This document shows positions 1,501 to 51,270 of a stretch of DNA of 64,000 bases, one piece after another; positions within the stretch are counted from its first letter, which is position 1, and each line of letters opens with the position of its first letter. The notes beneath the pieces were generated by a model that was not told the DNA's origin, searched no databases, and was given only the letters and a program-made list of their open reading frames with translations. A program made the position numbers and the translations under genes. The stretch covers positions 1-64,000 of the IMG/VR virus record IMGVR_UViG_3300029985_000693, one strand, 5' to 3'. The DNA comes from a virus.

Positions 1501-1542
1501 ATGCTATTGACAATTTGTGCATTGGTCGGGTCCCAATTTTAA
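1501..1542 (+). CDS. Possible 13-aa leader peptide
   Basis: A very good ribosome binding site (AGAGGAAATAAA) sits directly before an ATG that opens 13 codons (MLLTICALVGSQF) and stops at TAA 1540-1542, inside the AATTTTAA box and seven bases before the kinase-like gene. It could be a translated leader that opens the small hairpin covering the next ribosome binding site. It is equally possible that the binding site is fortuitous. Confidence 0.3.
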   Translation: MLLTICALVGSQF

Positions 1543-1548
1543 AGGGTA
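1535..1548 (+). promoter_or_regulatory. AATTTTAA box before the kinase-like gene
   Basis: CCCAATTTTAAAGGG precedes the ATG at 1549. It is one instance of a recurrent AATTTTA box of the rightward region. Here CCC and GGG flank the box and can pair, placing the ribosome binding site (AAAGGG) in the hairpin arm. The role as promoter element, processing site or translational control element is inferred. Confidence 0.45.
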
Positions 1549-2832
1549 ATGGCTACCGTAGATATATTCAACACCCAAACCCAAGAGACTTTTGAACTAG
1601 AGGTCTCCAATTCGGAAGAGTTGGAGATCTATCTACGTAGAAATATTAAATTCCTTAACAATAATGTACCTTTTGGTAACTTAGCCAAATGTTTGCAACT
1701 AATAGAAGATGATGGTAATTATCTATTAGACTTCTCCAAAGCAGAAGAGTTGTTTGACTCAATTCCAACTCAAAACATACCAGAAGCCATAGAATCAGAC
1801 CTAAACAGCCACGCCCTTAGCAATTTAGGTAAATCAGAGTCTAGCGTACTGGAAGAAGAGTACGGTATCAAACCAGATAAATGGGCCAAAGTCCTAGGTA
1901 ATAATCTCAAACCATTTAACCCAAAATTAGTAGCACCAAAGGTTATAAGTCCTTGGAATCAGGACGGAATAACCTTCTCCAAAGCCATCAGATCTGCGTT
2001 TGATGCAAATAAAGTACATTACGTACATTTAGGTGGGAAGCACAGTAATGGTAGCATGGTAGCGTTTGATCCATCTACCAAAATACGTTACCTATTAAAG
2101 CCAGGATTTGGAGAGTCTTCTCCTGCGGCTGGTATTAGGGAAACCCCCTACACTCAATCTCAACGAGAAACGGCCTTTTACCATGCATCTGTTTCCATGG
2201 ATTTAGGTAATTATTTACCTGAATGCCAAATGTTGTTGTTTGATGGCAAGGAAGTTGCTTGCATAAAAATGCTTCCGGACTACTTTGTAAATTACGTGGA
2301 CTTCACTACTGAAGACCAGTTTTTAGGTAGAGAAGTTCTGGAAAACTATTTGGTTTCAGGAACCCTACATAAATGGGCTGTCATGGATTACGTTCTCGGG
2401 AACGTAGATAGGCACAGCTCCAACCTAATGGTGGGTAGACCCAAAGGCAACAGCAGCGACGGGAATAAAGGCGTCACTGTTCGCCTAATAGACCACGGTA
2501 GCACCTTGGCTGGTTTGGGTTTTGACCCAGCCAATGATCCTTCCAGCTATTTACCGTATTATTTACGTATGTGGAGTTCCATTTCCAAGTTCCAACGCTT
2601 GATCCCAAAAGACAGGTTTCACCAAATGCCCACAACTTCTTTGGAGGGTGAAAAGATTTTAAGAAACTGGTTCAAAGACCTTGATTTGGTTAAATTGGCA
2701 TGGGTGTTAGAATCTTATGGAATAAACCCCCAACCCATGATTGCCCGTGCGACCCAAATACACCTAAATATGGCAAACGGAAGGCTGGATGAGGCAATAA
2801 ACAAACTATGGGCTGGTTACGATAATCTTTAA
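1549..2832 (+). CDS. HipA/PI-kinase-like kinase-fold protein
   Basis: A 427-residue protein. Residues 1-130 show no known domain. The C-terminal part has hallmarks of the atypical kinase group that includes HipA and PI3/4-kinases: a likely ATP-binding lysine (YLLKPGFGES, K184), a QRETAFYHAS helix with the conserved Glu, the catalytic-loop motif GNVDRHSSN (285-292) and a metal-binding LIDHG (314-317). It would phosphorylate a protein or lipid; the substrate is unknown. It lies between the GMP reductase gene and virion genes and is probably expressed late, so it may be packaged or act on virion or host proteins. Family assignment rests on motifs only. Confidence 0.65.
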   Translation: MATVDIFNTQTQETFELEVSNSEELEIYLRRNIKFLNNNVPFGNLAKCLQLIEDDGNYLLDFSKAEELFDSIPTQNIPEAIESDLNSHALSNLGKSESSVLEEEYGIKPDKWAKVLGNNLKPFNPKLVAPKVISPWNQDGITFSKAIRSAFDANKVHYVHLGGKHSNGSMVAFDPSTKIRYLLKPGFGESSPAAGIRETPYTQSQRETAFYHASVSMDLGNYLPECQMLLFDGKEVACIKMLPDYFVNYVDFTTEDQFLGREVLENYLVSGTLHKWAVMDYVLGNVDRHSSNLMVGRPKGNSSDGNKGVTVRLIDHGSTLAGLGFDPANDPSSYLPYYLRMWSSISKFQRLIPKDRFHQMPTTSLEGEKILRNWFKDLDLVKLAWVLESYGINPQPMIARATQIHLNMANGRLDEAINKLWAGYDNL

Positions 2833-2835
2833 TAT

Positions 2836-3147
2836 ATGGAAATATCAGACAAACAAATCAAAGGCAAACCCAAAGTTGTAGGAAGTACCGAAAATGGACC
2901 GGTACTGTCTATGACCACAAAGGGTGGATTGCATTTAATCCTAGGAATGAATAAGGGCGGCAAGACCGAAACTTTAGCTATGGGTTCGCATCCTGCACTT
3001 GCAAGGCATATAGCCTCCAAAAAAGCCGATATTACGTGGAATTCATTAGAAAAATCAGAAGCTAGGGATACCGAAACATTTAAAGAACTAATCCCTAAAT
3101 ACGAAAAACTAACTGACGAAATTAGAGAATTAGAAAACAAGGAATAA
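2836..3147 (+). CDS. Unknown small protein (103 aa)
   Basis: A 103-residue soluble protein beginning three bases after the kinase-like gene and ending immediately before the next ATG, so it is tightly packed into the operon. The N-terminal half is rich in Gly and Lys; the C-terminal 40 residues are charged and helical in character (ELIPKYEKLTDEIRELENKE), a likely coiled coil. No family is recognised. Position suggests a minor virion or assembly protein. Confidence 0.7.
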   Translation: MEISDKQIKGKPKVVGSTENGPVLSMTTKGGLHLILGMNKGGKTETLAMGSHPALARHIASKKADITWNSLEKSEARDTETFKELIPKYEKLTDEIRELENKE

Positions 3148-4002
3148 ATGGCTCCCAAGAACACCATTACCACAACGCCTATGCCTTATAGCGGGATAAT
3201 GCCCGCTTTCAATCCTGACGATTTTGCGGCTTTCATTGATTCAAATGGAGTAGAGCTTATTCATTATAAGGCCATACCTTGTCCCGTAGGGCTTGAAGAT
3301 GAACAAGATTCTGTTCACAAGAACCATGTACCCCATGCTGGATGCAGTAACGGTTACATATTCATAGAAGCTGGCTGTTTGGTCGCCACCTTCAATAACG
3401 CCCCAAATTTATGGAACCTAGGTGATACCGGACTAGTTTCGGGTTCTACCTGTATGGTTACATTTCCTTTTACTTATACGGATGGAATTACACCCGTAGT
3501 AATAGCCGTACAAGATAGATTTTATCTAAAAGATATACAATGCTATGTTACCTCCCAGCAAAGGTTCCAACGTGGCAACGGTACAACTGATTTCTTACAC
3601 TTTCCCCCAGAATACATAGAATATATCTTTGATTCCAAGGGTTTGCAATACTTGTCTACGGATTATAGCGTTACTCAGGGCTCTCTTCTTTGGGTAGGAA
3701 ACAGACCTGCTGAAGGTACTATTTGTGCCATTAGGTATTTATACCGCCCTTTTTGGTATGCAGCGAGATTATTACACGAAATTCGCGTAGCCAGAACAGA
3801 AAATATGGTTACAGGTGAAAGAGGGCTTACTAGAATGCCTTATTCAGCCCTTTGTAATCGTGAGAACGTAGGTAGAAATGAATATACTCAAATTAACCCA
3901 AATCAAATTGTTCCGCCAAGAGCTATTTTGCCACCCAACCAACGAAATAATTTTTTATCTGGTAAATCACCAAGCTCTATAAGTGAAATAGAGGAAGAAT
4001 AA
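3148..4002 (+). CDS. Probable virion structural protein (connector or neck region)
   Basis: A 284-residue protein with a good ribosome binding site (AAGGAATAA) overlapping the end of the preceding gene. It has many aromatic residues and prolines, a beta-rich middle, and a Pro/Asn-rich C-terminal tail. Two His/Cys clusters (HKNHVPHAGC near residues 56-66; a second Cys-containing stretch about 15 residues on) could bind metal. Similar-sized proteins sit in the head-to-tail connector block of large myoviruses, but I do not recognise a named family. It is followed directly by a homing endonuclease gene. Confidence 0.6.
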   Translation: MAPKNTITTTPMPYSGIMPAFNPDDFAAFIDSNGVELIHYKAIPCPVGLEDEQDSVHKNHVPHAGCSNGYIFIEAGCLVATFNNAPNLWNLGDTGLVSGSTCMVTFPFTYTDGITPVVIAVQDRFYLKDIQCYVTSQQRFQRGNGTTDFLHFPPEYIEYIFDSKGLQYLSTDYSVTQGSLLWVGNRPAEGTICAIRYLYRPFWYAARLLHEIRVARTENMVTGERGLTRMPYSALCNRENVGRNEYTQINPNQIVPPRAILPPNQRNNFLSGKSPSSISEIEEE

Positions 4003-4003
4003 A

Positions 4004-4735
4004 ATGATAGTATATGGATTAGTTTATGCTCTATTGGATCCTTTTGGAAAAATTAGATATATAGGTCAAACATGCGATACAATAGAGCAGAGATTTAAAG
4101 AACACCTATTTCCTTCAAATCTTAAAAATTTAGATCACAAAACCAATTGGATAAAATCATTATTATCAAAAAACCAAAAACCTACGATAAGATTGCTTCA
4201 AGATAATATTCCTGTAAAATTCATAGAAACCAAAGAAAAACAATGGGATATGACTATTATTGATACCACTGAAACAGAATGGATTCGTCTATATAAACTA
4301 ATTGGCGCAAAATTAACCAATAGCACAAATGGAGGGGGAGGTCAGCATGGAAGAATCCCAAGTAAAGAAACTTTACGTAAAATGTCTGAATCTCATAAGG
4401 GTAAAAACAATGGACCCGTAGCTGCTGCTAATATATCAAAAGCCTTAACAGGAAAGAAGAGAGCCCCATTTACAAAAGAACACAAAAGGAATATAGCGAT
4501 AGGAGCTACAGGTAAGCTTCAATCAGAAGAATCAAAATATAAAAAATCAGTTACCTTGAAAGCAAACCAAAAGAACACAGAACATCTACGTAAGCTATCG
4601 GAAGCAAGGAGGGGTGTGCCGCAAAGTCCAGAATTAATAGCAAAAAGAGTGGCTTCCTGTAAACTAACTCTTGAAAGAAACAAAAAAAAGAAAATAGATG
4701 CAATAAATGCTATATTTTCTTTTTTAATGTCTTAA
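4004..4735 (+). CDS. GIY-YIG homing endonuclease with NUMOD3 motifs
   Basis: A 243-residue free-standing homing endonuclease. The GIY-YIG core is at residues 4-23 (YGLVYALLDP...IRYIGQT), followed by the conserved Arg segment (QRFKEHL). The C-terminal half has NUMOD3-type DNA-binding motifs, seen as repeats of the form S-K-E-T-x-x-K-M-S-x-S-x-x-G (RIPSKETLRKMSESHKGK; APFTKEHKRNIAIGATGK; the later LRKLSEARRG). Such enzymes cut cognate alleles lacking the gene and so spread by repair. The ATG overlaps the ribosome binding site region AGAGGAAGAATAAA. It is AT-richer than its neighbours and lies between two virion genes, as expected for a mobile insertion. Confidence 0.88.
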   Translation: MIVYGLVYALLDPFGKIRYIGQTCDTIEQRFKEHLFPSNLKNLDHKTNWIKSLLSKNQKPTIRLLQDNIPVKFIETKEKQWDMTIIDTTETEWIRLYKLIGAKLTNSTNGGGGQHGRIPSKETLRKMSESHKGKNNGPVAAANISKALTGKKRAPFTKEHKRNIAIGATGKLQSEESKYKKSVTLKANQKNTEHLRKLSEARRGVPQSPELIAKRVASCKLTLERNKKKKIDAINAIFSFLMS

Positions 4736-4740
4736 ACCGC

Positions 4741-4756
4741 AATTTTACCACTAAAT
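4741..4756 (+). promoter_or_regulatory. AATTTTA box before the gene at 4757
   Basis: AATTTTACCACTAAAT directly precedes the ATG at 4757 and no Shine-Dalgarno sequence is visible between them. It is an exact instance of the recurrent box of the rightward region. Confidence 0.45.
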
Positions 4757-5584
4757 ATGAAAGATTCTCAATTTCTACAACTTTTCATTGGTAAAGAAGG
4801 AGCCCAAGCCCTTTCTAAGTCTGCGCGCGCAATCCCCTCTATAAATACCGTTATAGCGCCAACAGTACTTTCCACCTGGATCAGCTTAGTTGAGAACTTC
4901 GATGGGGAGGTCCTGGGTAAATCCATTAAATTCCAAAAGAACGAAGATGGGACATATAATGGTTCAGTTCAATTTTCAAAAGGGATGTCTATAGATTTTA
5001 CCCTAAAGGACATTTTTTACGTGGTATCAGCTATTGCTGTAGCCCATGACTTAACAGGCGATATTGGAAATATCAAAAAAACAGACTTAACTGCTTTAAA
5101 TAAGACTATTTCTGCCTTAGTAACACATACTCTTAATAAATCCCAAATGGTAGGAATAAATGCTGGTTTGGCGGCAAAACCACTAGCTGCAATGACTCCT
5201 ACTCCTCCTAGTCCACCATCAATGAAACCCTTGGGAGCTAAGGCTCAAATACCAGGGATGCCCAAAGCGGATCCTTCCTTGTTGGCCAGTCAAGGGGTAC
5301 CCCCCAATGAAATTCATTCCCCCAGTAGCTCTACGGGAACTAGTAGCTTGGGTACCATGAAATTACCTTCCTTGAAGTTGAAGAAGTCAGAAATAGTAGA
5401 CAAATGTGGGATATGTGCCACCAAGCATTTCAAGGAAGACGTACTCAAGGGATGTCTCTGTATTCGGGGATTGCTCAAAACCACAACCGTCGAACTCAAA
5501 GAAGACACCTATGTATTGGTAAATACTAATAATTTAGGTTTAAGTGATTTTGGTTTTATAGCAGACGCCTTGAAGGGTTTTTAA
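4757..5584 (+). CDS. Unknown protein with C-terminal cysteine cluster (275 aa)
   Basis: A 275-residue protein in three parts: a folded N-terminal region (1-130), a Pro/Ser-rich linker (about 140-205) with PTPPSPPSMKP and SPSSSTGTSSLG, and a C-terminal module containing four cysteines (DKCGICATKHFKEDVLKGCLC), a likely zinc site. The modular build with a disordered linker is common in phage proteins that hold two partners together. No family is recognised. It ends two bases before the next ATG. Confidence 0.65.
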   Translation: MKDSQFLQLFIGKEGAQALSKSARAIPSINTVIAPTVLSTWISLVENFDGEVLGKSIKFQKNEDGTYNGSVQFSKGMSIDFTLKDIFYVVSAIAVAHDLTGDIGNIKKTDLTALNKTISALVTHTLNKSQMVGINAGLAAKPLAAMTPTPPSPPSMKPLGAKAQIPGMPKADPSLLASQGVPPNEIHSPSSSTGTSSLGTMKLPSLKLKKSEIVDKCGICATKHFKEDVLKGCLCIRGLLKTTTVELKEDTYVLVNTNNLGLSDFGFIADALKGF

Positions 5585-5586
5585 TA

Positions 5587-6108
5587 ATGGAAAAATCTAA
5601 AGAAAAATCAACCAAAGGTCCCCATAAGTGGATGGACAAATATGTCTTAGTAGACAAAGACGACTCAGCCTCTCTCGATAGGGACAGTGCTGTTGGTGAA
5701 TTTCACAACAAACTCCCCAGAGAGGTAGCCGAAAAGGAAGCTTACCATAAATACACCCAAAAGGTCCATCAAGACGGGGCAATACACCACTTAAAGGGAA
5801 TGAAGGCTGCTGAAGCTACTGGAAATAAAGAAGCCAAAGAGTCCCATGGGTTAAAACTATATCTACATCTTAAGGCTTTGGGTGGAGATCAAACAGAATT
5901 AGCATCTAAAATCAAGGCTTTGGCGGATGAAGACACATCTACCGGTACTTATAAGTTTCAAAGCCATTCTGGGGATGATCTTTTACAAGACTGCCTATCA
6001 AAAACAGAAACAAAAGACTATTTGCGTGAATTACTTAAAAATATGACCAAAAAACTTATCCAGAACGTCTTACAAGACAACAATCTTAATCATAATGAAA
6101 TCAAATAA
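5587..6108 (+). CDS. Unknown charged virion-region protein, C-terminus replaced by an HNH insertion
   Basis: A 173-residue, Lys/His/Asp-rich helical protein with no recognised family. Its last residues (after RELLK near position 149) run NMTKKLIQNVLQ and overlap the start of the HNH endonuclease gene by 14 bases. Just after that HNH gene, at 7294-7344, an orphan in-frame fragment reads ELLKEMVGNLAKAIKK-stop, which repeats the ELLK junction. The simplest reading is that the HNH gene inserted near the 3' end of this gene and supplied a new C-terminus, leaving the original one stranded. The protein probably remains functional, with a changed tail. Confidence 0.65.
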   Translation: MEKSKEKSTKGPHKWMDKYVLVDKDDSASLDRDSAVGEFHNKLPREVAEKEAYHKYTQKVHQDGAIHHLKGMKAAEATGNKEAKESHGLKLYLHLKALGGDQTELASKIKALADEDTSTGTYKFQSHSGDDLLQDCLSKTETKDYLRELLKNMTKKLIQNVLQDNNLNHNEIK

Positions 6109-7303
6109 AAAATACAAATGTGATATTTTAGACGGAACAAGGATCGGAAGATTGACTGTAGTCGAAAAATTAATAGAAAAGACTAAAAATGGTTCTTTGA
6201 AATATTTATGTAAATGTGATTGTGGCAATCAAAAAATCATAAAAGGAGCCAACCTTTATTCAACAAAAACAATTAAGGCGACACAAAGTTGTGGTTGTTT
6301 ACAAAGGGAATCAATCAAATTAATATTTAAAGACTTAGAAATTATAGAAATTGGTAGCAGGGTGGGTCAAGTAACTATATTAAAAGAACTAGAGATTCGC
6401 AATAAGAATGGAAGTAAATACTTTTTATGTAAATGCGATTGCGGTAAAGAGATAAAGACAACAGCGACAAGACTTAGAATCAAACATAAAAGTTCTGCGA
6501 AATATTCAACCATAGAAAGTTGTGGATGTTTAAGAAGCGAACGACGGTTATCTGGCGGCAAAAATCCGCCTGGGTTAAATATCATTAACAAGCTTGTTAG
6601 TGATTATATCACTGGGGCGAAACATAGAGGATATAGCAATACGCTCACCTGGGATGAGCATGTGTATTTATTTAAACAAAACTGTTATTATTGTAATTTA
6701 CCTCCATCGAATATTTTAAAAGCATATAATTCAAGTTATATTTATTCCGGTATTGATAGAATCGATAATACTATTGGATATACTATAGATAATGTTGTCT
6801 CATCTTGCAAGAAATGTAATATAGCAAAGTTCTCTGGCACACAGTTGAATTTCATTAAATGGATTAAGAGTTTATACGAATTTAAAGAAACAACGAACAT
6901 TTTAATTGATTTCGATCCAAAATTCAGAGCATTGAATCAATTAATCAGTAAATACAAAACTTCAGCAAAACAAAGGAAACTAAAATATGATTTAGACAAA
7001 GAAACAGCAATTTTCCTTTTCAAAGGGGCATGTATTTATTGTAAAAAATCGCCATACAGAATATTCAAGATAAGAGCAAAGAAAGAATATTTATATGTCT
7101 ATAACGGTATAGATAGAGTTGATAACCGTCAAGGATATATTAAGGAAAATGTTGTTTCTTGCTGCACACAATGTAATTATAGTAAAAGGGATTTGTCAGT
7201 ACAAGAATTTAAAGATTGGACATTGAGAGCATACAACCATATGAAATCTAATGGTATTTTTGATAAAATAAAGCCCAAAGACAATATTTACAAGAACTTT
7301 TGA
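6095..7303 (+). CDS. Tandem HNH homing endonuclease (402 aa)
   Basis: A free-standing endonuclease of duplicated design. Residues 1-160 carry two copies of a zinc-ribbon-like unit (CKCDCGNQKIIKGA...SCGCL and CKCDCGKEIKTTA...SCGCLR). The second half carries two HNH-like modules, each with CxxC, a GIDRIDN or GIDRVDN core and a following CxxC (NCYYC...SCKKC; ACIYC...CCTQC). The double HNH could give two active sites in one chain. Strong AT bias and codon use unlike the flanking genes support recent transfer. It overlaps the gene at 5587 by 14 bases and is followed by that gene's stranded 3' end. Confidence 0.85.
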   Translation: MKSNKKYKCDILDGTRIGRLTVVEKLIEKTKNGSLKYLCKCDCGNQKIIKGANLYSTKTIKATQSCGCLQRESIKLIFKDLEIIEIGSRVGQVTILKELEIRNKNGSKYFLCKCDCGKEIKTTATRLRIKHKSSAKYSTIESCGCLRSERRLSGGKNPPGLNIINKLVSDYITGAKHRGYSNTLTWDEHVYLFKQNCYYCNLPPSNILKAYNSSYIYSGIDRIDNTIGYTIDNVVSSCKKCNIAKFSGTQLNFIKWIKSLYEFKETTNILIDFDPKFRALNQLISKYKTSAKQRKLKYDLDKETAIFLFKGACIYCKKSPYRIFKIRAKKEYLYVYNGIDRVDNRQGYIKENVVSCCTQCNYSKRDLSVQEFKDWTLRAYNHMKSNGIFDKIKPKDNIYKNF

Positions 7304-7344
7304 AAGAAATGGTCGGAAATCTGGCCAAAGCAATAAAGAAGTAA
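7294..7344 (+). pseudogene. Stranded original 3' end of the gene at 5587
   Basis: In the frame GAA CTT TTG AAA the sequence reads ELLKEMVGNLAKAIKK followed by TAA. ELLK matches the residues of the gene at 5587 just before its sequence diverges (RELLKNM versus ELLKEM). It has no start codon and overlaps the end of the HNH gene, so it is read as a displaced exon-like remnant. The assignment is inferred from this short match. Confidence 0.55.
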
Positions 7345-7379
7345 AGCAATAATCTTATTTACAGGAGATTTAAACAATT

Positions 7380-8051: not shown

Positions 8052-8077
8052 AATTTAATTAAGGTAAATCTCCTGTG

Positions 8078-8117
8078 AAAGGGTTCTGGGTTTAAACACC
8101 TAGAACCTTTTCTATTT
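8078..8117 (+). terminator. Rho-independent terminator after the gene at 7380
   Basis: A 14-bp stem (8078-8091 with 8098-8111; core GGTTCTGGGT/ACCTAGAACC, one G-T pair) closes a 6-base loop and runs into a T-rich tract (TTTTCTATTT). It lies 26 bases after the stop codon of the preceding gene. Confidence 0.85.
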
Positions 8118-8124
8118 GGGGAAT

Positions 8125-8137
8125 AATCTTTAAGCAT
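8125..8137 (+). promoter_or_regulatory. AATCTTTAA variant of the rightward box
   Basis: AATCTTTAAGCAT directly precedes the ATG at 8138, downstream of the terminator, where new transcription would be needed. The same variant occurs at 17862 before the sheath gene. Function is inferred. Confidence 0.35.
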
Positions 8138-10244: not shown

Positions 10245-10252
10245 TAGACCCC

Positions 10253-10266
10253 AATTTTAAGGGAAT
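10253..10266 (+). promoter_or_regulatory. AATTTTAA box with pairing CCC/GGG flanks
   Basis: CCCAATTTTAAGGG lies just before the ATG at 10267. CCC and GGG can pair across the box, which would hide the AAGGG ribosome binding site. The arrangement is nearly the same as at 1535. Confidence 0.45.
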
Positions 10267-13459: not shown

Positions 13460-13480
13460 TGCTAGCAATCTTAGTCTACA

Positions 13481-14494: not shown

Positions 14495-14529
14495 AGCATT
14501 TTTTGGCCAAACAAAATTACCGGAATCTT

Positions 14530-14541
14530 AATTTTAAACAG
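14530..14541 (+). promoter_or_regulatory. AATTTTAA box before the second GIY-YIG gene
   Basis: AATTTTAAACAG directly precedes the ATG at 14542 and favours that start over the ATG at 14479. It is notable that a mobile gene carries the same box as resident virion genes. Confidence 0.4.
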
Positions 14542-15450
14542 ATGGACAAGATAAGATACCATATCTATATATTAAAACATCCTATTACTAATGAAATTAG
14601 ATACGTAGGACAAACGAAAAATACTCTCTCCAACAGACTATATGATCATTTATATGAAGCAAGGAAAAGAAAAAATCTAACATACAAAAATAATTGGGTG
14701 TTTTCATTGCTGCAAAAAGAATTAAAACCAAAAATAGAAATGTTAGATTATGCTTGGGGGATAGAAGAGGCAAATCAAATAGAAAAAACATATATTAAAA
14801 GATTCAAAGAAATGGGAAAAAGATTAACCAATTCAACCACAGGAGGAGAGGGGCATGTACCAATTCCATTAACAGAAGAACAAAAAGATAAGTATCGCAA
14901 ACAAGTTATAGAATTAAATACAGGGAAAATTTACAAAAGCCAAACACATGCCGCTAAAGAATTGGGAGTTCTACCTTCAAGTATATCCGCCATATGCAAG
15001 GGAAAGCATGCTTCTATTCATGGTTATCGATTTCAATACGGGAACACGCCGGTCGATTACAAGAACCCACATAAAGCATTGAAAAGACCAATAATTGAAG
15101 TAAAAAGTGGAATTAAATACAACAATACAAAGGAAGCTGCCGAAACACTAAAGTTAGACAAAAGCCATATATCTGCTGTTTTAAGAGGAGATCGTATTCA
15201 AACGGGTGGTTGTCAATTTAAATACGCAGACGACTCGTCCGTATTTGTATTAAGAAATAGGAAATTCAATAACAAAAAGATCATAGAGACAACCACAAAT
15301 ACAATTTATAACAGTATCAAAGAAGCGGCTTTAAAAAATAACCTTAAGCCATGTTCCCTGTCACAAGCAATTAACGGAAAAATCAAAAAGCTAAGATGTG
15401 GTCTTGTGTTTAAGTTTTTAATAGAAACACAACCAAACCGTAATATTTAA
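14542..15450 (+). CDS. GIY-YIG homing endonuclease with three NUMOD1 repeats
   Basis: A 302-residue homing endonuclease. The GIY-YIG core begins at residue 6 (YHIYILKHP...IRYVGQT) with the Arg helix after it (NRLYDHLYEA). The C-terminal 170 residues carry three NUMOD1 DNA-binding repeats: ELNTGKIYKSQTHAAKELG, EVKSGIKYNNTKEAAETL and ETTTNTIYNSIKEAALKNN, each followed by an SxISxxxxG helix. An in-frame ATG at 14479 overlaps the previous gene and would add a 21-residue extension with no homology to the GIY-YIG core, so the ATG at 14542 is preferred. It is AT-rich relative to its neighbours, consistent with mobility. Confidence 0.88.
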   Translation: MDKIRYHIYILKHPITNEIRYVGQTKNTLSNRLYDHLYEARKRKNLTYKNNWVFSLLQKELKPKIEMLDYAWGIEEANQIEKTYIKRFKEMGKRLTNSTTGGEGHVPIPLTEEQKDKYRKQVIELNTGKIYKSQTHAAKELGVLPSSISAICKGKHASIHGYRFQYGNTPVDYKNPHKALKRPIIEVKSGIKYNNTKEAAETLKLDKSHISAVLRGDRIQTGGCQFKYADDSSVFVLRNRKFNNKKIIETTTNTIYNSIKEAALKNNLKPCSLSQAINGKIKKLRCGLVFKFLIETQPNRNI

Positions 15451-15456
15451 GGGTAT

Positions 15457-17856: not shown

Positions 17857-17861
17857 ATAGC

Positions 17862-17887
17862 AATCTTTAGAACGAGGATAAACAATT
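17862..17887 (+). promoter_or_regulatory. AATCTTTAG variant box and ribosome binding site of the sheath gene
   Basis: AATCTTTAG is followed by a ribosome binding site (GAGGA, spacing 9) and the AATTATGGC start context of the sheath gene. This is the variant form of the recurrent box. Confidence 0.35.
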
Positions 17888-20389: not shown

Positions 20390-20397
20390 GTAATAGT

Positions 20398-20405
20398 AAT
20401 TTTAA
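20398..20405 (+). promoter_or_regulatory. AATTTTAA box before the tail tube gene
   Basis: AATTTTAA lies nine bases after the sheath stop and 28 bases before the tube ATG, so this copy leaves room for a short leader. Exact instance of the recurrent box. Confidence 0.45.
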
Positions 20406-20433
20406 GCAATAAATAAGAAAATGGATATAAACT

Positions 20434-21367: not shown

Positions 21368-21386
21368 GTCCTAATTTTAGGACCAT
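21368..21386 (+). promoter_or_regulatory. GTCCTAATTTTAGGAC hairpin box
   Basis: A perfect inverted repeat (GTCCTA/TAGGAC, loop ATTT) built around an AATTTTA box lies four bases before the ATG at 21387. The AGGA that would serve as ribosome binding site is inside the stem, so folding should lower translation initiation. Confidence 0.5.
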
Positions 21387-29500: not shown

Positions 29501-30149
29501 TTCCTGTTATGGAATTTACTGTTCTGCTACAAATACAACCTCCGGAACCGCTGCTGCTTATAGCTCTAATAACGGTTCTACCTGGGTTGCCGCAACGATG
29601 CCTTCGAGTGGTGTCTGGAACGCTCCAGGTTGTTCTGGTTATACTTGTGCCGCCACAACCACGGCATCGGGTACTGTTGCTGCTTATAGCTCTAATAACG
29701 GCTCTACCTGGGTAGCCGCAACGATGCCTTCAAGTGGTGTTTGGAACGCTCCATATTGCTATGGTGTATATTGCATAGCTACACTTACTACGTCTTCCAC
29801 AGCGGCTGCTTATAGTTCTAACGGTGGTTCTACCTGGGTTGCAGCAACGATGCCTTCGGCGGCGGTATGGAATGGTAATCCTATTTGCAATGGAGCTATT
29901 TGTGTAGATGTAACGGCTGCGGCTGGTGTTACGACTATGGCCTACAGTCTTAACAATGGAGCTACTTGGTCTTTGGGTACCCTACCTGTAGCGGCTACGT
30001 GGAGCAATCCAACCGTAGGGGTTCTCAATATCACTATAGCAAATACAGGATTTACTAATTATTGGGGATACAACGACTTAATCCACGATCCTGTGGGTTG
30101 GCCATCCTCATTAGAAATATTTAATCAATACACACGTAATTTTAATTAA
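26574..30149 (+). CDS. Exported Asp-box (BNR-like) repeat protein with IPT/TIG domain (1191 aa)
   Basis: A 1191-residue protein. Residues 1-18 are a textbook signal peptide (MLKRLFILLTIVGSAAYA, cut before GDAW). About 24 repeats of 40-48 residues follow, each with an Asp-box-like turn S-x-N-G/N-G-x-T-W and a T-M-P-S-S segment, and most with a cysteine pair C-x(4-5)-C (PSCVGSNC, PTCVSTFC). This suggests one or more beta-propellers stabilised by disulfides. Around residues 372-460 an IPT/TIG Ig-like domain (ITSFTGSPGVFGAAVTITGS) splits the array. Asp-box propellers occur in sialidases, but no catalytic sialidase residues are evident. Export is inferred; the role may be surface adhesin, receptor mask or virion fibre. 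Confidence 0.7.
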   Translation: MLKRLFILLTIVGSAAYAGDAWVGSNSATSYYSTNNGSTWTAATGMASQGIQPSCVGSNCTTFFYAATGNTAYYTTNGGATWSTSTLPATQGWQTPSCVGTNCSATAGWFAGVNTTTAAFSSNNGQTWVSSTLPSSQLWWAPSCSTGSVCVVVSGSTSTNVAAFSTNSGSTWTASTLPATASWGYSVCNGSNCVVTETGSTTTAAFSSNGGSTWATSTMPSSGQWRVSCSGTTCAGTRYDTNTTAGAFSSNGGATWSASTLPSSGTWSSISCYSSTCFAFRNDSATTAAAVSTNGGSTWSASTMPSSAAPWGNPYADFGVTNNAAVVCNATLSGCMTYNGGTGYAFTANSGTSWTGGTIGSGYSGCGLAYASVAPAITSFTGSPGVFGAAVTITGSGFTGATSLLFNNFSQPTFTIASDSTITTTVPTGATTGQLSVTSPSGTGLSASNFIVSGHSGGAFFIGNNGSNPKANVAYSTNGSSWFSATAFGSTFWSNLQGNTTSCNSTTNTCVLTVDPSSLGFFTAYSPNGGQTWQLSSQLAANTWGGGVSCPSLSGCVMVQGISTNTVAFSTNGGLSWSTSTTPSTTTWNAPACVGANCTLTSNAGTAGAAYSTNGGSTWTAATMPSAATWNTPTCVSTFCTVTAYFTTTTAAAYSANNGQTWSAAIMPSSQSWNPPTCSGTTCSATTNTTTTAAAYSTNNGSTWGAATMPSSNQWNSPSCSGTVCVATIVASGTTAAYSTNSGQTWTAATMPSSHAWGNPVCVSSNCIAIPFGGTATTAAAYSINGGQTWTATTLPTSQSWGQPTCINTNCTVTAYYSSSAAAYSTNNGQTWTATTMPPQDVPLNAISCGSTTCASTSSLYSGTGSFYTGNGYYWTSPNSLPGNSLNWKAASCAGSTCSTVVTNSSTAAAFSSNGGSSWVSATMPSSAIWNTPLCIVGGFCVATNATSGTAAAYSTNGGSTWVAATMPSSGVWNTPSCYGIYCSATNTTSGTAAAYSSNNGSTWVAATMPSSGVWNAPGCSGYTCAATTTASGTVAAYSSNNGSTWVAATMPSSGVWNAPYCYGVYCIATLTTSSTAAAYSSNGGSTWVAATMPSAAVWNGNPICNGAICVDVTAAAGVTTMAYSLNNGATWSLGTLPVAATWSNPTVGVLNITIANTGFTNYWGYNDLIHDPVGWPSSLEIFNQYTRNFN
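29440..29870 (+). repeat. Near-identical tandem Asp-box repeats at the DNA level
   Basis: Four consecutive units share almost identical DNA around GCAACGATGCCTTCGAGTGG, one every 120-130 bases, encoding NGSTWVAATMPSSGVWN. They are part of the coding sequence and have no spacer structure of a CRISPR array. Units elsewhere in the gene are more diverged, so this end has expanded most recently. Confidence 0.7.
30138..30145 (+). promoter_or_regulatory. AATTTTAA box before the zinc-finger gene
   Basis: AATTTTAA overlaps the last codons and stop of the Asp-box gene and lies 24 bases before the ATG at 30170, with a ribosome binding site (AAAGGAA) in between. Because it overlaps codons for Asn-Phe, chance occurrence is more likely than at other sites. 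Confidence 0.35.
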
Positions 30150-32430: not shown

Positions 32431-32436
32431 TTCAAT

Positions 32437-32853: not shown

Positions 32854-32864
32854 ATTTCTGCCCT

Positions 32865-32872
32865 AATTTTAA
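32865..32872 (+). promoter_or_regulatory. AATTTTAA box before the tape measure gene
   Basis: CCCTAATTTTAATAAG lies 24 bases before the ATG at 32897, in a non-coding gap of 43 bases. Exact instance of the recurrent box. Confidence 0.45.
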
Positions 32873-32896
32873 TAAGTTAACCCCGGAAAATAAGAT

Positions 32897-35038: not shown

Positions 35039-35041
35039 AGA

Positions 35042-37821: not shown

Positions 37822-37826
37822 GGAGC

Positions 37827-37840
37827 AATTTTAATCAATT
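37827..37840 (+). promoter_or_regulatory. AATTTTAA box before the wedge gene
   Basis: AATTTTAATCAATT directly precedes the ATG at 37841. The only Shine-Dalgarno-like sequence (AGGAG, 37820-37824) lies upstream of the box, 16 bases from the ATG. If the box were a -10 element the mRNA would start almost at the ATG. Confidence 0.45.
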
Positions 37841-40375
37841 ATGGCTACTACTTATGCAAATCCACCCCAAGATACCACTCCGCTAGATACTATAGACCAC
37901 ACAATCATTCCGATTGGTGGTAACAATCTCAATCCTACCCTATTTGCCCAGGTAGGCACGGATGCCACCTTATGGAATAAAGCTTTCCCTTATAGATTTC
38001 AGATACTTGAACAGGATCCCATTAAAGGTCTAATGAATACAGGTAGATATTTCGACCTACCCATCCCACCGGAAGCTTTGGAAATCAACACACCCTTTGC
38101 CATTAATACATCTGTAACCCTAAATGGTATTATAGAACAACACAATGCGTTCCCATTGCTCAATATCTTTCTTAGGGGCTCTACGGGTGTATTAAACAAA
38201 CTAAACGTAAGGACTGGGAGTAATCAATTACCAGCCAAAGGTATTCTTGCTGGTACAATAAACGCTGTAAATGCCTTTGCTAAAGATATTAAAAGCTTAA
38301 ATGCACAACCAGGACCAAATACGGCTATTTATTCTCCTTCACTGATAGGAAATACAGATTTTTCAGGAAGCGGTCAGTCTCTTTCAGATGCAGTAACTGG
38401 AGCTGTTAATGCCTCTTTGGCTGGAACCGGCTATTCCAGGTTCCTGGCCTTACGTAACTTCTTAGAATCATACGCTATTTTGAAGAAACAACAAGCCTAC
38501 CAAGGATATCGATTAGCATTTACCACCTACAAAGACCAATATAGTTATATTTGTACTCCCAAGATGTTCCGTATGGTAAGATCTGCGGAAAGTCCTTTCG
38601 AGTTTAAATACGAAATACAATTGGAATCTTGGCAAAGAATCAAAGCTGACCAAATTAAACCAAATTTTAGCGGTCAGCATCGTGCATCGCAAGCCAATAA
38701 TAGTACTTGGCAAAACATACTGAAATACGTTCAATTAGGATTGACCTTACTAAACGACCTTTCCGGTATAATTTCAGGTGTAATCAGTGACGTTCAAGGC
38801 ATTTTGAATGTTGTTAGGGAAATATCATTATTCCTTAAGAATCTGGTAGGAGTAGCGTTACAAGCTGCCGACATGCCTGCGGTCATTGTTAATAACCTAA
38901 AAAATGCTATTTTAGCTTCTATAAATAATATAGCTACCGCTACTGCTGGTTCCAATGGTCAATTTCCGTCCAGTCAACAAGTTCAAGCAGATTATCAAGC
39001 CTGTTTAAGATGGTGGACGACCCAGCAAATGGTTAATCCAATAGTGATAAACGGTCCTGTTAACAATATGTTAAGGACTAATGTGGATTACATATTTGAA
39101 AATCCAAGCCAGCACTATGGGTTTTTCAACTCTATTGCTTTGAATAGTCTAAACAACATGACTTCAGCTATACAAGCTCAAATCAATACAGAGATTCAAA
39201 ATGTATCGGCTTACAGTGTGGTTGATTTTAAGAACGCAGTAGCCACCCTACAGAACGCATCGAATGTATATGCTCAAGCGGTAGGAGCTAGTGACCCAAC
39301 CTATATAGAAACCTACCAATTGGGATCTGTAAATCAAATAAGGGACACACCTACAGATGATGATTATGCGGTATTAAATACCATTAATGATATGATCATT
39401 CAAACCAACAATATAATAGCAGCTCTACAAAGCAATACAAACATCACAACACCTCAAGCGGTTACATTTGTTGCAAATCTAGCAAATCAGGCCGGAATAC
39501 CGTTTGATATTCCTTTAAGTAAATATCCAATTCCATTTCCTTACGGTGGAACCCTTGAAATGATAGCTCAAAATTACCTAGGAGATCCAGATAAATGGAT
39601 AGAAATAGCCACCCTGAATGGCTTAAGGTCTCCCTATGTAGACGAAATAGGATTTTTGCTAGATTTAACCACCAATGGCAACAACGACACTATTACCGTA
39701 GCGGATGTAAGCAATCTAATACTAGGGCAAACAGTATGGATTGGTTCCAATACGGTGCCAGTACAATCCAGGTCTATTTTGGCAATTAATAATCTAAGTC
39801 CAGATAGCTGGTCTGTGACCTTGGATGGTCCAGATGATCTAGGTATACTAAAAACTAGTGACAATGCCTATTTACATGCATTTTTACCATTTACCGTAAA
39901 CTCACAAGGATTCGTAGCTATTCCATCTCAAAATCCACCGGTTGGAGCTAGCGATCCTGTATCTAGAAACGATCAAATCAGTGTTGCCCAGCAAATATTC
40001 GATGCTGCTGGTACAGATTTATTAATAGACTCCGACAACGACCTAATTATAACTCAAAACGGTGATTGCAGATTAAGCCAAGGTGTCCAAAATATCATCC
40101 AAACCCTCAAAATTCTTATCGAATTACCAAGAGGGTCTCTCCTACATCACCCTACAATAGGTGTAAATCTAGTAGGTGGCAGTTTGGCAGACCTGAGCGC
40201 TACAGACATAGCATCTACCATCAAAACAGCTATAGATCAAGATGGTTTTTTCAGCAATTGGACATATTCCGTTACAGTAAAGGTTGACTCCAATTGGGCC
40301 AATGTAACCATTAACCTAAATGTAAGCAATGTACAACAATTACTGCCAATTACATTCAAGCTAAACATTAACTAA
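37841..40375 (+). CDS. Baseplate wedge fusion protein, gp53/LysM-like and gp25-like (844 aa)
   Basis: An 844-residue multidomain protein. Residues 40-270 include FRFQILEQDP-type and FDLPIPPEALEINTPFAI segments and a later KYEIQLESWQRIK, as in LysM-associated tail proteins that contact the sheath initiator. Near residues 550-600 there is a LysM-like stretch (GGTLEMIAQNYLGDPDKWIEIATLN) as in gp53. The last 115 residues (DLLIDSDNDLIITQNGDCRLS...LIELPRGSLLHHPTIG) match the gp25/GPW fold of baseplate wedges. T4 encodes gp53 and gp25 separately, so this is a fusion of two wedge functions. The N-terminal start context is AATTATGGC. Confidence 0.72.
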   Translation: MATTYANPPQDTTPLDTIDHTIIPIGGNNLNPTLFAQVGTDATLWNKAFPYRFQILEQDPIKGLMNTGRYFDLPIPPEALEINTPFAINTSVTLNGIIEQHNAFPLLNIFLRGSTGVLNKLNVRTGSNQLPAKGILAGTINAVNAFAKDIKSLNAQPGPNTAIYSPSLIGNTDFSGSGQSLSDAVTGAVNASLAGTGYSRFLALRNFLESYAILKKQQAYQGYRLAFTTYKDQYSYICTPKMFRMVRSAESPFEFKYEIQLESWQRIKADQIKPNFSGQHRASQANNSTWQNILKYVQLGLTLLNDLSGIISGVISDVQGILNVVREISLFLKNLVGVALQAADMPAVIVNNLKNAILASINNIATATAGSNGQFPSSQQVQADYQACLRWWTTQQMVNPIVINGPVNNMLRTNVDYIFENPSQHYGFFNSIALNSLNNMTSAIQAQINTEIQNVSAYSVVDFKNAVATLQNASNVYAQAVGASDPTYIETYQLGSVNQIRDTPTDDDYAVLNTINDMIIQTNNIIAALQSNTNITTPQAVTFVANLANQAGIPFDIPLSKYPIPFPYGGTLEMIAQNYLGDPDKWIEIATLNGLRSPYVDEIGFLLDLTTNGNNDTITVADVSNLILGQTVWIGSNTVPVQSRSILAINNLSPDSWSVTLDGPDDLGILKTSDNAYLHAFLPFTVNSQGFVAIPSQNPPVGASDPVSRNDQISVAQQIFDAAGTDLLIDSDNDLIITQNGDCRLSQGVQNIIQTLKILIELPRGSLLHHPTIGVNLVGGSLADLSATDIASTIKTAIDQDGFFSNWTYSVTVKVDSNWANVTINLNVSNVQQLLPITFKLNIN

Positions 40376-40380
40376 GCACC

Positions 40381-40388
40381 AATTTTAT
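40381..40388 (+). promoter_or_regulatory. AATTTTAT box before the gpJ-like wedge gene
   Basis: AATTTTAT starts the gap between two wedge genes, 17 bases before the ATG at 40406. No Shine-Dalgarno is visible. Confidence 0.4.
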
Positions 40389-40405
40389 CATCAGAACCCC
40401 AAATT

Positions 40406-46102: not shown

Positions 46103-46105
46103 TAT

Positions 46106-47449: not shown

Positions 47450-48417
47450 TGTCAGATAATTCAATACTGGTTGTATTACCTGTAACTACTACCTCTTTAT
47501 CCAGGGAAGAGGGTACAGGCTCTTACCTGCACGCCTCCACTGTACACAACATAACAGACTATTCGATTACCATAGCCTCCAACCAAACCACAGCCAGCAT
47601 CATAGTGACTACGGTAGACAACCACGGCCTACAAGTTGGCGATTGGGTGTTTATCGATGGAGTACAATGGCCAGTCACTTTGGTTAGTGGAGATTGGGTT
47701 ATCAATGGAAACGATCCATCCATTATTTTTGCTGCGGGTAGATTAAATGGATTATTCAGGGTCAGCATAATAGGTACCAGCACAATATTTGGTTTTAATA
47801 TAGAAAATACTATTTTAGGACCGTTACCAACCCAACATATTACCAATACAGGTACAGTGGCTGCTGTTGCACAACCAGTAAATACAGAGTTTCCGGGTCC
47901 TTATATATTTGATCCTGTCGATGGTATAAGTATAACCGATACCTCTACTGATATAGAACAATCAATTCCGGTTGGTTCCACCAATCCTGTCTTGACCGTA
48001 TCATCTACAAACGGCTGGCCAAATACTCCTGGCTGGGTAGCCATAGGATATGGTTCTAGTTATTTCGATAGGCCGATTAAATATGTAGGAGTGCAAGATT
48101 CTACCCATTTACAAATAGACCCCAACTATGTTTTTCCAAAGAACATAAGTTCTGGTACAGACGTAACCTTACTATACAGCAAGGCTCCTTGGATTCCTCC
48201 CAATATAACGTCAGTAGGGGCTTTTTGGGCTACCGCCAATACAGCCGGAGTAAATGCAGCCATTACGGATATAACAGCCATAGTTGCTTCAGGAGTGGAT
48301 TTGACCTTTGACGTTATTTATCCAGGAGATACAGGCTTGGGGGCCGCAGGTTATCCTACCAGTGGTAACGGTAAATTATCAAGTATTACGCAGGTATACG
48401 ATATTAACGGGGAATAA
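47449..48417 (+). CDS. Baseplate or tail-fibre-region protein (322 aa)
   Basis: A 322-residue beta-rich protein with low charge. It includes GLQVGDWVFIDGVQWPV and GLFRVSIIGTSTIFGF, the same type of 'VGDxV/L ... G.FRV' strand module found in the two preceding genes. This points to a shared, repeated baseplate domain. The ATG overlaps the previous stop (TAATG). No catalytic motif is seen. Confidence 0.55.
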   Translation: MSDNSILVVLPVTTTSLSREEGTGSYLHASTVHNITDYSITIASNQTTASIIVTTVDNHGLQVGDWVFIDGVQWPVTLVSGDWVINGNDPSIIFAAGRLNGLFRVSIIGTSTIFGFNIENTILGPLPTQHITNTGTVAAVAQPVNTEFPGPYIFDPVDGISITDTSTDIEQSIPVGSTNPVLTVSSTNGWPNTPGWVAIGYGSSYFDRPIKYVGVQDSTHLQIDPNYVFPKNISSGTDVTLLYSKAPWIPPNITSVGAFWATANTAGVNAAITDITAIVASGVDLTFDVIYPGDTGLGAAGYPTSGNGKLSSITQVYDINGE

Positions 48418-48864
48418 ATGACCCAAGCTGCTTCCAATAAAGTAATGGGTGGTTCCCAAATACTGGTATTTATTAACGGATTTCCATGGGGAAACTGCCG
48501 TAGCATAAGGTTGCGTATCGTAAACACATCCAAAAAGCTGTTTGGATTAGATAGCGCCTTTCCTTTTGATAACATCCCTACCACAATACAGGTAGATGGA
48601 ACCATAGAACTATATAAACTGGTGGGGGATGGAGGGTTGGAGGGACAAGAAATAACAGCCCCTCCTCTTTTGGTTCAAAACTCCATGTTTGCCAGCATAA
48701 TTTTAATAAACAGAATAAGCCAAGAAGTGATATTTCGTTCCGATACCTGTTTGGTCCAATCTCAAGATTGGGATATACCCTCCAGAGGTATAATTAGTGG
48801 GTCAGTAGGCTTTACGGCCATCGATTGGACCAGCGACGGTATCCAACTAGAAAGCACGATTTAA
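48418..48864 (+). CDS. Small beta-barrel-like tail protein (148 aa)
   Basis: A 148-residue protein directly abutting the previous gene. It has strands typical of tube-like or baseplate ring proteins (QILVFINGFPWGNCRSIRLRI, IQVDGTIELYKL, MFASIILINR, GIISGSVGFTAID). The overall size and plan resemble tail-tube-fold proteins used as adaptor rings. The fold call is inferred from strand pattern only. Confidence 0.5.
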   Translation: MTQAASNKVMGGSQILVFINGFPWGNCRSIRLRIVNTSKKLFGLDSAFPFDNIPTTIQVDGTIELYKLVGDGGLEGQEITAPPLLVQNSMFASIILINRISQEVIFRSDTCLVQSQDWDIPSRGIISGSVGFTAIDWTSDGIQLESTI

Positions 48865-48875
48865 AAGGATAGACT

Positions 48876-48938
48876 ATGAAAAAACAACAACTTGAAAATC
48901 CAAAAATGGCTAAAAAAGAACAAAAAGGCGGTATATAA
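48876..48938 (+). CDS. Twenty-residue Lys/Gln-rich peptide
   Basis: An ATG with a good ribosome binding site (AAAAGGATAGACT) opens 20 codons (MKKQQLENPKMAKKEQKGGI). Its TAA overlaps the ATG of the fibre gene at 48938 (TAATG). A tiny coupled gene placed this way may serve to set translation of the next gene, or may be a basic structural peptide. Confidence 0.5.
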   Translation: MKKQQLENPKMAKKEQKGGI

Positions 48939-51247
48939 TGTCTGTACTTAGAGCGGCTGCTTTATATAGTCAACAGCGCGTAGACGTTTCTACATTGCGG
49001 CTTTTTGACGCAGGAGTGCAAGGAGATTTTGACTGTTTAGCCGGTCAAATTATGAGTGGTAGGGATCCTTTGGTGATCAGAGGGGCTACTATCAATCCAG
49101 CCGGTATTGGTGGTCCTCCTACGGCCCTACAATTAGACCTTTCCGATACAGCGCTGCTCCATTATGGAGCCACCTCTTCGGGAACCATATTTTATACAGC
49201 TGAATCAGAGCCAGTACAAATACTATCCACCACAAATCCACTAATTGTTGGTTCCTTTACGGCAAATACAGTAAATTATGTTGGTTTGGATTTGGTCCGA
49301 ATACCAGACGACACAACTGCCGACCAAGTAGCTTTTTTGATACCCAATTTGGATCAAGAAGTATACCGCGAAACAGATACAGGGCAAATTCTACAATACC
49401 GTATTTACATTTCTACTACCCTTTTCGGTTCTAGTCCAAATGTTTGCCCGGTAGCTCAAGTCGCTGTAGATGACCGTGGCAACGTAACGAGCATAGAGGA
49501 CTGCCGACCCATGTCGTTCCGGCTAGGAAGCGGTGGAGACAGTCCTAGCGCCTCAAATAGCTATGTTTGGCCTTCGTCCACCCTGCGCTTAGTAGAACCA
49601 AATATAAGTTCGACCAGCACCAGCAATAATCCATTCGTTTCTGCTGATAAGTCTATTTACAGCCAAAAAGCTTGGCAAGATGCCGTAATGTCTCGTATAT
49701 GGGAAATAGGTGGTGGTAGCAATTGGTACAGCCCATCCACAGGTGCAAACGATGTTGTAACGGCCATAGGTGCTGGAGGTGGATTTACCTATGTATCTCC
49801 AACACTTACATGGACCGGAATAACTGTTGGTTTTACAAATTCAAACGCCAACTACAATACCATTACAAATGGTACTGCCGATTTAAGCGCTACAGGTAGT
49901 GTACTTTACATACTATTAGACAGAAGCGATACCAGCCCTAGTACCGCTTTAGTTCCTGCTGTTTGTCAGTGGAACAACCTATACTTACAGGGATCTGGGA
50001 CTCCTGGAATCCCATATGCTTTGGCTTGGAATTTCAACGGTACGGTTTACGCTAGAGGAGATGGAAATCCAGTTCCTATTGTTTTAGGAGGGGTTGCTAC
50101 GGTTAGCTCTGGAGGTACTGGCACTACTGGTATCGTTGAAATCTACAACGACCCCACTAGCTTATACACAAACAGTGGAACCTCCAGTACCTCCACCCCT
50201 ATTGTACCGGTGATGTCTGGAGCCCATAGCGGACAAATATTAGCTCTAGGCTTAACACGTCCAGCTTCAGGAACAATAATGATTGGTGCCAATACCTATG
50301 ATACTGGAGTGAGTATTGGTCAATCTGGATTTGGAACAAGTTTAACTTTAACTGGCGCTCTTAATCATCACAACTCAGTTTCATCAGGAGTTACATGGTT
50401 TCAGACAGACAACGTAATTGGTGGATATTCAGACGTGTTCCGGGGAAAAGCTGGAAATTCAACCACAAATGCCTTAATTGAGGTGGTTGGACAAACCCCT
50501 GGCGCTCAAATTAAACTAGAAAACGACTCTTCTACTTTATTGAGTTTGGTAGGAAATACAACCGCCTACCCTGCCGCTGGAACAGGAACAGGAGCTACAA
50601 ATACTGGTTCTCAAATCAATACGGGGACATCAGGCCCATTGGTTCTAGTTGGAGGTGGAGTGTCAACTAGCGGTCCTGGAGTGATTTTAAATACAGAAGC
50701 AGCGTTAGTAAGTGGGAAAGCTGTGTCTATTAGAAATTTCAACACAGAAATAGCATCAATAGACTATCAAGGTTATATAACAAGTGCCGGAAATCTAATT
50801 CCACCTCCAGGTGTTGGTATGTGTAATTATGCATCAGCCGCCGTAAGCGTTACAAATAGTCAAAGTCATTTATGGGTAGGTTCCGTAAGTGCAAACCCCG
50901 TAACACCAATTGGCGGTGTTACAATTTCTACAACCGCTGGAGCTACAAATGGAGCACTTACAATACCAGCGACTCAGGGTACATACATAATAACCATTGG
51001 AGGGACGGCCCTTTTTTCAAGCGCTGCAAATTATACCTACTCAATTTATAACATGACTGTTGGTTCGGCATCTTTTACTGGAACAGTCACACTAAGCTCC
51101 ACGGCAGCCGTCGTATTGTCTGGAGCCTATGTCTTCCAGCCACTTGGGATTTCAAATACATTTATTATTTCATTGGTAGCTGGTCTTGCTGGACCATACA
51201 CTGTCACAAGTGATAGTTTGTTTTTAATGGCACAAAGAGTGGCTTAA
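48938..51247 (+). CDS. Tail fibre or fibre-baseplate connector (769 aa)
   Basis: A 769-residue protein. The N-terminal 200 residues (VDVSTLRLFDAGVQGDFDCL, then NYVGLDLVRIPDDTT and QILQYRIYISTTLFG) have the layout of phage baseplate-anchoring proteins that carry fibres. Residues 210-560 are Ser/Thr/Gly-rich fibre-like sequence. Residues 440-600 include a GSQINTGTSGPLVLVGGGVS repeat-like stretch, and the C-terminus (SAANYTYSIYNMTVGSASFTG) resembles C1q-like or TNF-like tips. It is likely a receptor-binding component. The family call is by composition and position. Confidence 0.55.
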   Translation: MSVLRAAALYSQQRVDVSTLRLFDAGVQGDFDCLAGQIMSGRDPLVIRGATINPAGIGGPPTALQLDLSDTALLHYGATSSGTIFYTAESEPVQILSTTNPLIVGSFTANTVNYVGLDLVRIPDDTTADQVAFLIPNLDQEVYRETDTGQILQYRIYISTTLFGSSPNVCPVAQVAVDDRGNVTSIEDCRPMSFRLGSGGDSPSASNSYVWPSSTLRLVEPNISSTSTSNNPFVSADKSIYSQKAWQDAVMSRIWEIGGGSNWYSPSTGANDVVTAIGAGGGFTYVSPTLTWTGITVGFTNSNANYNTITNGTADLSATGSVLYILLDRSDTSPSTALVPAVCQWNNLYLQGSGTPGIPYALAWNFNGTVYARGDGNPVPIVLGGVATVSSGGTGTTGIVEIYNDPTSLYTNSGTSSTSTPIVPVMSGAHSGQILALGLTRPASGTIMIGANTYDTGVSIGQSGFGTSLTLTGALNHHNSVSSGVTWFQTDNVIGGYSDVFRGKAGNSTTNALIEVVGQTPGAQIKLENDSSTLLSLVGNTTAYPAAGTGTGATNTGSQINTGTSGPLVLVGGGVSTSGPGVILNTEAALVSGKAVSIRNFNTEIASIDYQGYITSAGNLIPPPGVGMCNYASAAVSVTNSQSHLWVGSVSANPVTPIGGVTISTTAGATNGALTIPATQGTYIITIGGTALFSSAANYTYSIYNMTVGSASFTGTVTLSSTAAVVLSGAYVFQPLGISNTFIISLVAGLAGPYTVTSDSLFLMAQRVA

Positions 51248-51256
51248 CGGAAAGGT

Positions 51257-51270
51257 AATTTTACTAAATT
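51257..51270 (+). promoter_or_regulatory. AATTTTAC box before the last rightward gene
   Basis: AATTTTACTAAATT directly precedes the ATG at 51271. As at 37827, the only Shine-Dalgarno-like sequence (AAAGG) is upstream of the box. Confidence 0.45.

Follow-up and report, generated by a model that had tools for sequence, protein, structure and literature searches.

The late promoters of phage T4 (TATAAATA) consist of a -10 element only, and are read by the host RNA polymerase together with gp55, a small phage sigma factor without the -35-binding helix. Sevostyanova in 2007 and Berdygulova in 2011 are said to have described leaderless middle and late mRNAs in the Thermus phages P23-45 and phiYS40. 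The middle and late promoters of P23-45 form an extended -10 class in which a -35 element is not needed (PMC7403470), and in Deinococcus-Thermus a -10 motif lying a few base pairs upstream of open reading frames, at a required spacing, starts leaderless mRNAs (PMC12340547). In phiKZ (TATG) and AR9 (AACA-6N-TA/G), too, late promoters are short words set at a constant distance from where transcription starts; they are read by phage multisubunit RNA polymerases, the AR9 leaders being 26-491 nucleotides (nt) long (PMC5312081). Here we analyse a recurrent box, AATTTTA, that precedes rightward genes in a 64,000-nt stretch of viral DNA (IMG/VR record IMGVR_UViG_3300029985_000693, positions 1 to 64,000; hereafter the window), and its counterparts in relatives of Myxococcus phage Mx1.

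Our preferred reading, to which we assign a probability of about 0.78, is that the box would be the -10 element of a late promoter without a -35 element, with CAATCTT as its family form and AATTTTA or AATCTTA as the form used here. The host RNA polymerase would open the DNA at the box with the help of a phage sigma factor, which has core-binding and -10-binding regions but ends short of the -35-binding helix in region 4, and the RNA would start at about the seventh base after the hexamer. Where the box lies 6-9 nt from the ATG, the 5' end of the mRNA would coincide with the start codon or adjoin it, making a Shine-Dalgarno sequence unnecessary; at distances of at least 14 nt, the mRNA would have a short leader containing a Shine-Dalgarno sequence. 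The sequence statistics presented below show the box itself, its strand, its spacing, the Shine-Dalgarno split, the initiator signature, the conservation and the presence of the sigma gene. That the box is a promoter of one kind or another we hold with high confidence.

Comparison with described promoters

Like T4 late transcription, the arrangement would combine a -10-only late promoter and a small phage sigma factor in which the -35-binding helix is absent, although here the sigma factor is a candidate for that role. It differs in sequence, as the box is YAATCTT and does not match the T4 consensus, and in that a leaderless spacing is frequent in Mx1-like phages. Homology between the truncated sigma factor and gp55 was considered and is not supported (hhalign probability 0.7%, no profile match). 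The promoters of P23-45 share the independence from a -35 element, but those of P23-45 and phiYS40 are read by a host sigma factor modified by phage proteins, whereas a phage sigma factor is the candidate here and one box would serve both leadered and leaderless genes. As in Deinococcus-Thermus, a predicted -10 motif lies close to the open reading frame at a preferred spacing; there, however, the motif is TANNNT and is read by a cellular sigma factor in bacteria, whereas here it is AATCTT, occurs in phages and precedes late-strand genes only. A short late promoter word at a fixed distance from the predicted start site is the feature shared with phiKZ and AR9, which differ in using phage multisubunit RNA polymerases: no match to an RNA polymerase beta subunit was found in the ten records searched. 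There was also no match to a single-subunit T7-like RNA polymerase, though the control genomes gave none either.

Placement of the box in the window

The word AATTTTA is not in itself over-represented, as the two strands of the window hold 24 copies and the shuffle mean is 33.6; it is the placement that is over-represented. The 40 nt upstream of the 38 rightward starts, which make up 2.0% of positions, contain 11 of the 17 plus-strand copies (p=2.5e-15) and none of the seven minus-strand copies. The frequency there thus differs from that within genes and ahead of leftward genes. Ranked by count, AATTTTA is the top 7-mer of this upstream set.

A sequence-only reading of the window had reported the repeated box, and the observation is confirmed as real. 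All 11 copies of AATTTTA that it listed are in place, as are the variants at 7351, 8125, 15442 and 17862, and the one given as 13466 begins at 13467. Two sites had been overlooked, a AATCTTTA copy at 2824 before the gene at 2836 and an AATCTTA copy at 6082 before 6095, and the gene that follows the box at 14530 starts at 14542. The claim that no reversed copy precedes leftward genes is true of the window; outside it, the genome has two leftward genes, starting at 96112 and 105348, that carry the box in their own orientation. The box therefore tracks genes, not the replication strand.

A de novo motif search over the 57 rightward upstream regions of the 126-kb record to which the window belongs returned gYAATTTTA and, as its variants, AATCTTA, at a log-likelihood of 75 where shuffles reach 23-30, whereas the leftward upstream regions yielded AAAGGAA alone, which is a Shine-Dalgarno sequence. 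Further box sites in the rest of the record were found at 91616, 104076, 105387 and 109107.

Conservation among relatives of phage Mx1

Mx1 is the sole named phage matched by the 126-kb record (terminase 44%, sheath 40%), which is related to it. The rightward strand of Mx1 has no copy of AATTTTA; instead, its rightward genes have CAATCTT at equivalent places, and 14 of 86 rightward starts have AATCTT no more than 40 nt away, compared with 0 of 164 leftward starts. The de novo motif was recovered in two genomes, with GC contents of 42% and 55.5%. A search with a terminase profile gave 43 viral loci, some of them near-duplicates. At the junction where the terminase gene meets the one that follows, we see YAATYWW in 42 of 42 relatives (1.4 expected) and the exact YAATCTT in 35 (0.4 expected), over GC contents of 40-64%; because the relatives share ancestry and include near-duplicates, these counts are not independent events. 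Two loci (L040 and L054) have AATCAT at the junction, and in G006, the genome behind L054, AATCAT assumes the role of the box genome-wide. The conservation of the terminase junction across this GC range indicates that, in AATTTTA, this branch has an AT-rich version of a (C/T)AATCTT element belonging to the family of Mx1-like contractile-tail phages.

The box also follows individual genes. It was found at 51 of 85 orthologs of genes that are boxed here, versus 10 of 123 orthologs of unboxed genes (p=6e-16), and before the baseplate gene at 37841 it lies 6-7 nt from the ATG in all seven relatives. Absence of conservation had been named in the sequence-only reading as grounds for giving up the box; its positions are kept both in orthologs and at terminase junctions. 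The other ground named there, that the word be just as frequent within genes or ahead of leftward genes, is contradicted by the placement counts above. Within each genome, the box is nearly confined to one strand (17 vs 0, 20 vs 0, 14 vs 0, 11 vs 0, 18 vs 2, 12 vs 1 and 23 vs 2, all based on simple gene calls). We call this strand late in the sense that it holds the structural genes, not with respect to timing.

Other searches were negative: no DNA-level relatives were found in the phage collection, a sheath-based scan gave zero relatives although the terminase profile did find them, and a scan of bacterial genomes found no host-linked relatives. No published account of an AATCTT late promoter was found in the literature searched.

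Spacing, Shine-Dalgarno pairing and predicted start sites

The geometry of the box was assessed in Mx1 and five relatives of 168-182 kb, with 59 permuted hexamers as controls. The distance from AATCTT to the ATG shows a sharp peak at exactly 6 nt, with 38 sites versus an average of about 0.6 per permuted hexamer, and there is little nearer to the ATG. The usual gap from a -10 hexamer (-12 to -7) to +1 is about 6 nt, and we infer that at these sites +1 would fall on the A of the ATG. The hexamer is -10-like in having A at -11 and T at -7. Shine-Dalgarno pairing, scored with a generic anti-Shine-Dalgarno sequence, was seen for 6 of 46 genes with the box at 6-9 nt and for 59 of 73 with the box at least 14 nt away (p=1.6e-13).

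At long-leader sites, the ATG cannot impose an initiator signal. The seventh base after the hexamer, the predicted +1, is a purine at 62 of these 83 sites, and the sixth, the predicted -1, is a pyrimidine at 54 of 83, compared to 50% in the permuted-hexamer controls. At the 6-nt sites, a pyrimidine directly precedes the ATG in 33 of 33 cases. No -35 element was found 16-18 nt upstream and no column is conserved upstream of about -18, with a weak preference for R, G, C, C, G at -18 to -14; the earlier statement that this is not a sigma70 promoter is correct in that respect. The geometry and the scarcity of Shine-Dalgarno sequences fit a class of leaderless mRNAs with predicted 5' ends.

Taken together, the spacing, initiator and Shine-Dalgarno patterns are consistent with a promoter that starts at the ATG in the close class; they disagree with a translation element, and a cleavage site explains them less well. 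The three options put forward in the sequence-only reading thereby separate: a late-promoter -10 element is supported, and an RNase E-type processing site and a translation enhancer are disfavoured. The almost absent leader at 37841 and 51271 had been taken to argue against a promoter, an argument that is reversed by the 6-nt spike, by the few Shine-Dalgarno sequences at 6-9 nt and by the short spacing at 37841 in seven of seven relatives.

Two further observations concern gene starts in Mx1. In the putative prohead protease (L016:13002-13023), CAATCTT falls inside the annotated start and is followed, at a distance of 6 nt, by another ATG that looks in-frame (13023); the GenBank start is for this reason probably too early. 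The leftward genes of Mx1 (L017-L019) show another promoter-like class, TAGATCA..C..G-TA, whose GATC occupies positions -22 to -19 relative to the ATG. There are 16 genes with GATC at that exact distance, and the base before the ATG is a pyrimidine in 16 of 16. GATC is present in the upstream 40 nt of 55 of 161 leftward versus 7 of 55 rightward Mx1 genes, and G005 is enriched too. This class may be an early promoter, which would be leaderless as well.

A truncated sigma factor as candidate reader

The Mx1 coding sequence 2071-3078, which directly follows the helicase gene, carries the annotation of a putative sigma factor. Its syntenic counterpart here (84948-87215) has outer parts that are 44% and 37% identical to it, with an intein between them. 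The truncated sigma gene was present in all seven other whole records checked, and is helicase-adjacent in most loci that reach that far. Region 2 was recognised through a match to RpoD in PDB (E=2e-5) and through phrog_351 in 15 of 17 members; the Sigma70_r2 match is below the Pfam cut-off in Mx1 and in the first member. An AlphaFold model with a predicted local distance difference test score of 77 gave sigma-A chains as top Foldseek matches, at low whole-chain template modelling scores of 0.25-0.33. A region 4 helix-turn-helix, as would serve -35 reading, was not found in the aligned sigma members, which reach the beginning of region 4.1 and extend little or not at all beyond it. The lack of a conserved -35 fits a sigma factor without the -35-binding helix, and we think it likely that this protein reads the box. 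The sigma factor of G006, the AATCAT genome, is one of the most diverged members, at 35% to Mx1, and its segment following the intein site is also different; this is a single case. Inteins (PF14890) are found at or near the -10-recognition segment of the sigma gene both in this genome (84948-87215; L003:2948-5215) and in another relative (L057:2611-4851; L056:466-2706).

Alternative readings

Several points weigh against the reading just set out. The start of RNA at these sites, the reading of the box by a sigma factor and its late action are all predicted from sequence, and the truncated sigma factor is linked to the box by synteny and architecture. The genome studied here also encodes a second, complete sigma factor outside the window (124346-125071; L005:4346-5071), with 241 amino acids, a Sigma70_r2 match (E=4e-12) and a weak region 4 match, and the box rule of this genome may therefore differ. 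The most frequent spacing in it is 8 and not 6; either the start may lie 2 nt before the ATG or another rule may hold. Within the window, the leaders of 20434, 32897 and 40406 have a weak Shine-Dalgarno sequence or none, and 10267 and 1549 are boxed here but have few or no box-bearing orthologs.

These points favour, in part, a late promoter whose -10 element is read not by the truncated sigma factor but by one from the host or, in the genome studied here, by the second, complete one. The presence of the complete sigma gene, the differing form and spacing of the box here and the indirect link to the truncated protein all speak for another reader. However, the second sigma factor gave a strong match in this record alone, with nothing comparable in the other nine of the ten searched, whereas the box is family-wide. 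A complete sigma factor would be expected to use a -35 element, and none is conserved. The persistence of an unchanged AATCTT in phages of 40-64% GC argues for a reader carried by the phage, and we regard a different reader as unlikely.

RNA processing, in which an endonuclease would cut longer transcripts at a fixed distance after the box to leave trimmed and sometimes leaderless mRNAs, would account for the fixed distance to the ATG and for the missing Shine-Dalgarno sequences in the close class, and many boxes do lie inside runs of co-oriented genes. Yet the pyrimidine/purine step at the predicted +1 of long-leader sites is a signature of transcription start. In addition, late-strand genes that immediately follow an opposite-strand gene have no neighbouring co-oriented transcript that could be processed, yet they are boxed about twice as often (26/84) as those within runs (110/710, both summed over genomes); processing is in our view very improbable. 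An AU-rich mRNA element that recruits ribosomes would suit the many boxes 6-10 nt from the ATG, roughly the Shine-Dalgarno position, but we give it almost no credence, as at least half of the boxes are 14-45 nt from the ATG and accompanied by a distinct Shine-Dalgarno sequence (59/73), the box keeps its C in phages of 63% GC and so is more than an AU-rich stretch, and it is confined to late-strand genes.

Box sites and neighbouring genes in the window

Table 1 Box sites in the window, with the distance from the hexamer to the following ATG.
Box	Position	Strand	Distance (nt)	ATG	Remarks
AATTTTA	1535..1541	+	8	1549	
AATCTTTA	2824..2831	+	6	2836	overlooked earlier; box in 6/6 orthologs
AATTTTA	4741..4747	+	10	4757	4/6 orthologs with box
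AATCTTA	6082..6088	+	7	6095	overlooked earlier
AATCTTA	7351..7357	+	23	7380	Shine-Dalgarno AGGAG
AATCTTTA	8125..8132	+	7	8138	
AATTTTA	10253..10259	+	8	10267	
AATCTTA	13467..13473	+	8	13481	5/7 orthologs with box
AATCTTA/AATTTTA, overlapping	14524..14536	+	6 (second hexamer)	14542	
AATATTTAA	15442..15450	+	9	15457	weak variant; membership uncertain
AATCTTTA	17862..17869	+	20	17888	tail sheath gene; with Shine-Dalgarno
AATTTTA	20398..20404	+	30	20434	next gene after sheath
AATTTTA	21373..21379	+	8	21387	within 6-bp inverted repeat
AATTTTA	30138..30144	+	26	30170	Shine-Dalgarno AAGGAA
AATTTTA	32865..32871	+	26	32897	
AATTTTA	37827..37833	+	8	37841	baseplate gene; short-spaced box in 7/7 orthologs
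AATTTTA	40381..40387	+	19	40406	baseplate wedge gene; 4/7 orthologs with box
AATTTTA	51257..51263	+	8	51271	

In T4, a hairpin hides the ribosome site of the genes e, soc and 49. Striking hairpins surround the box in two places, of 8 bp at Mx1 28836 and of 6 bp at 21373 here, but a set-wide effect was rejected as not significant, with 36 of 300 and 120 of 300 shuffles reaching the observed mean. Two genes of the window, at 6095-7303 and 14542-15450, appear by eye to be homing endonuclease-like (HNH- and GIY-YIG-like), and each has its own box. The product of 1549-2832 matches the PI3/PI4-kinase domain PF00454 (E=1e-8), which is unusual in a phage. The leftward, primase-like gene at 56524-58599 has an apparent intein with a homing endonuclease, as judged by eye in the translation.

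Implications

The box is very probably a late promoter element that is shared across the family and has a sequence of a new type, and it would drive near-leaderless mRNAs at many genes. The near-absence of a leader, first raised as an objection, is the most informative part of the finding. The promoter reading predicts leaderless late mRNAs and aids the correction of gene starts. If the sigma assignment is right, these phages would offer a natural -10-only pair of sigma factor and promoter in which the box varies by member (AATCTT, AATTTT, AATCAT), useful for understanding how sigma region 2 reads DNA. More tentatively, and with less than even odds, a sigma factor lacking region 4 could write many leaderless late mRNAs while the early side of Mx1 uses the GATC promoter class with the same geometry. 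If that were true, much of the infection programme would rely on leaderless translation in hosts outside Deinococcus-Thermus.

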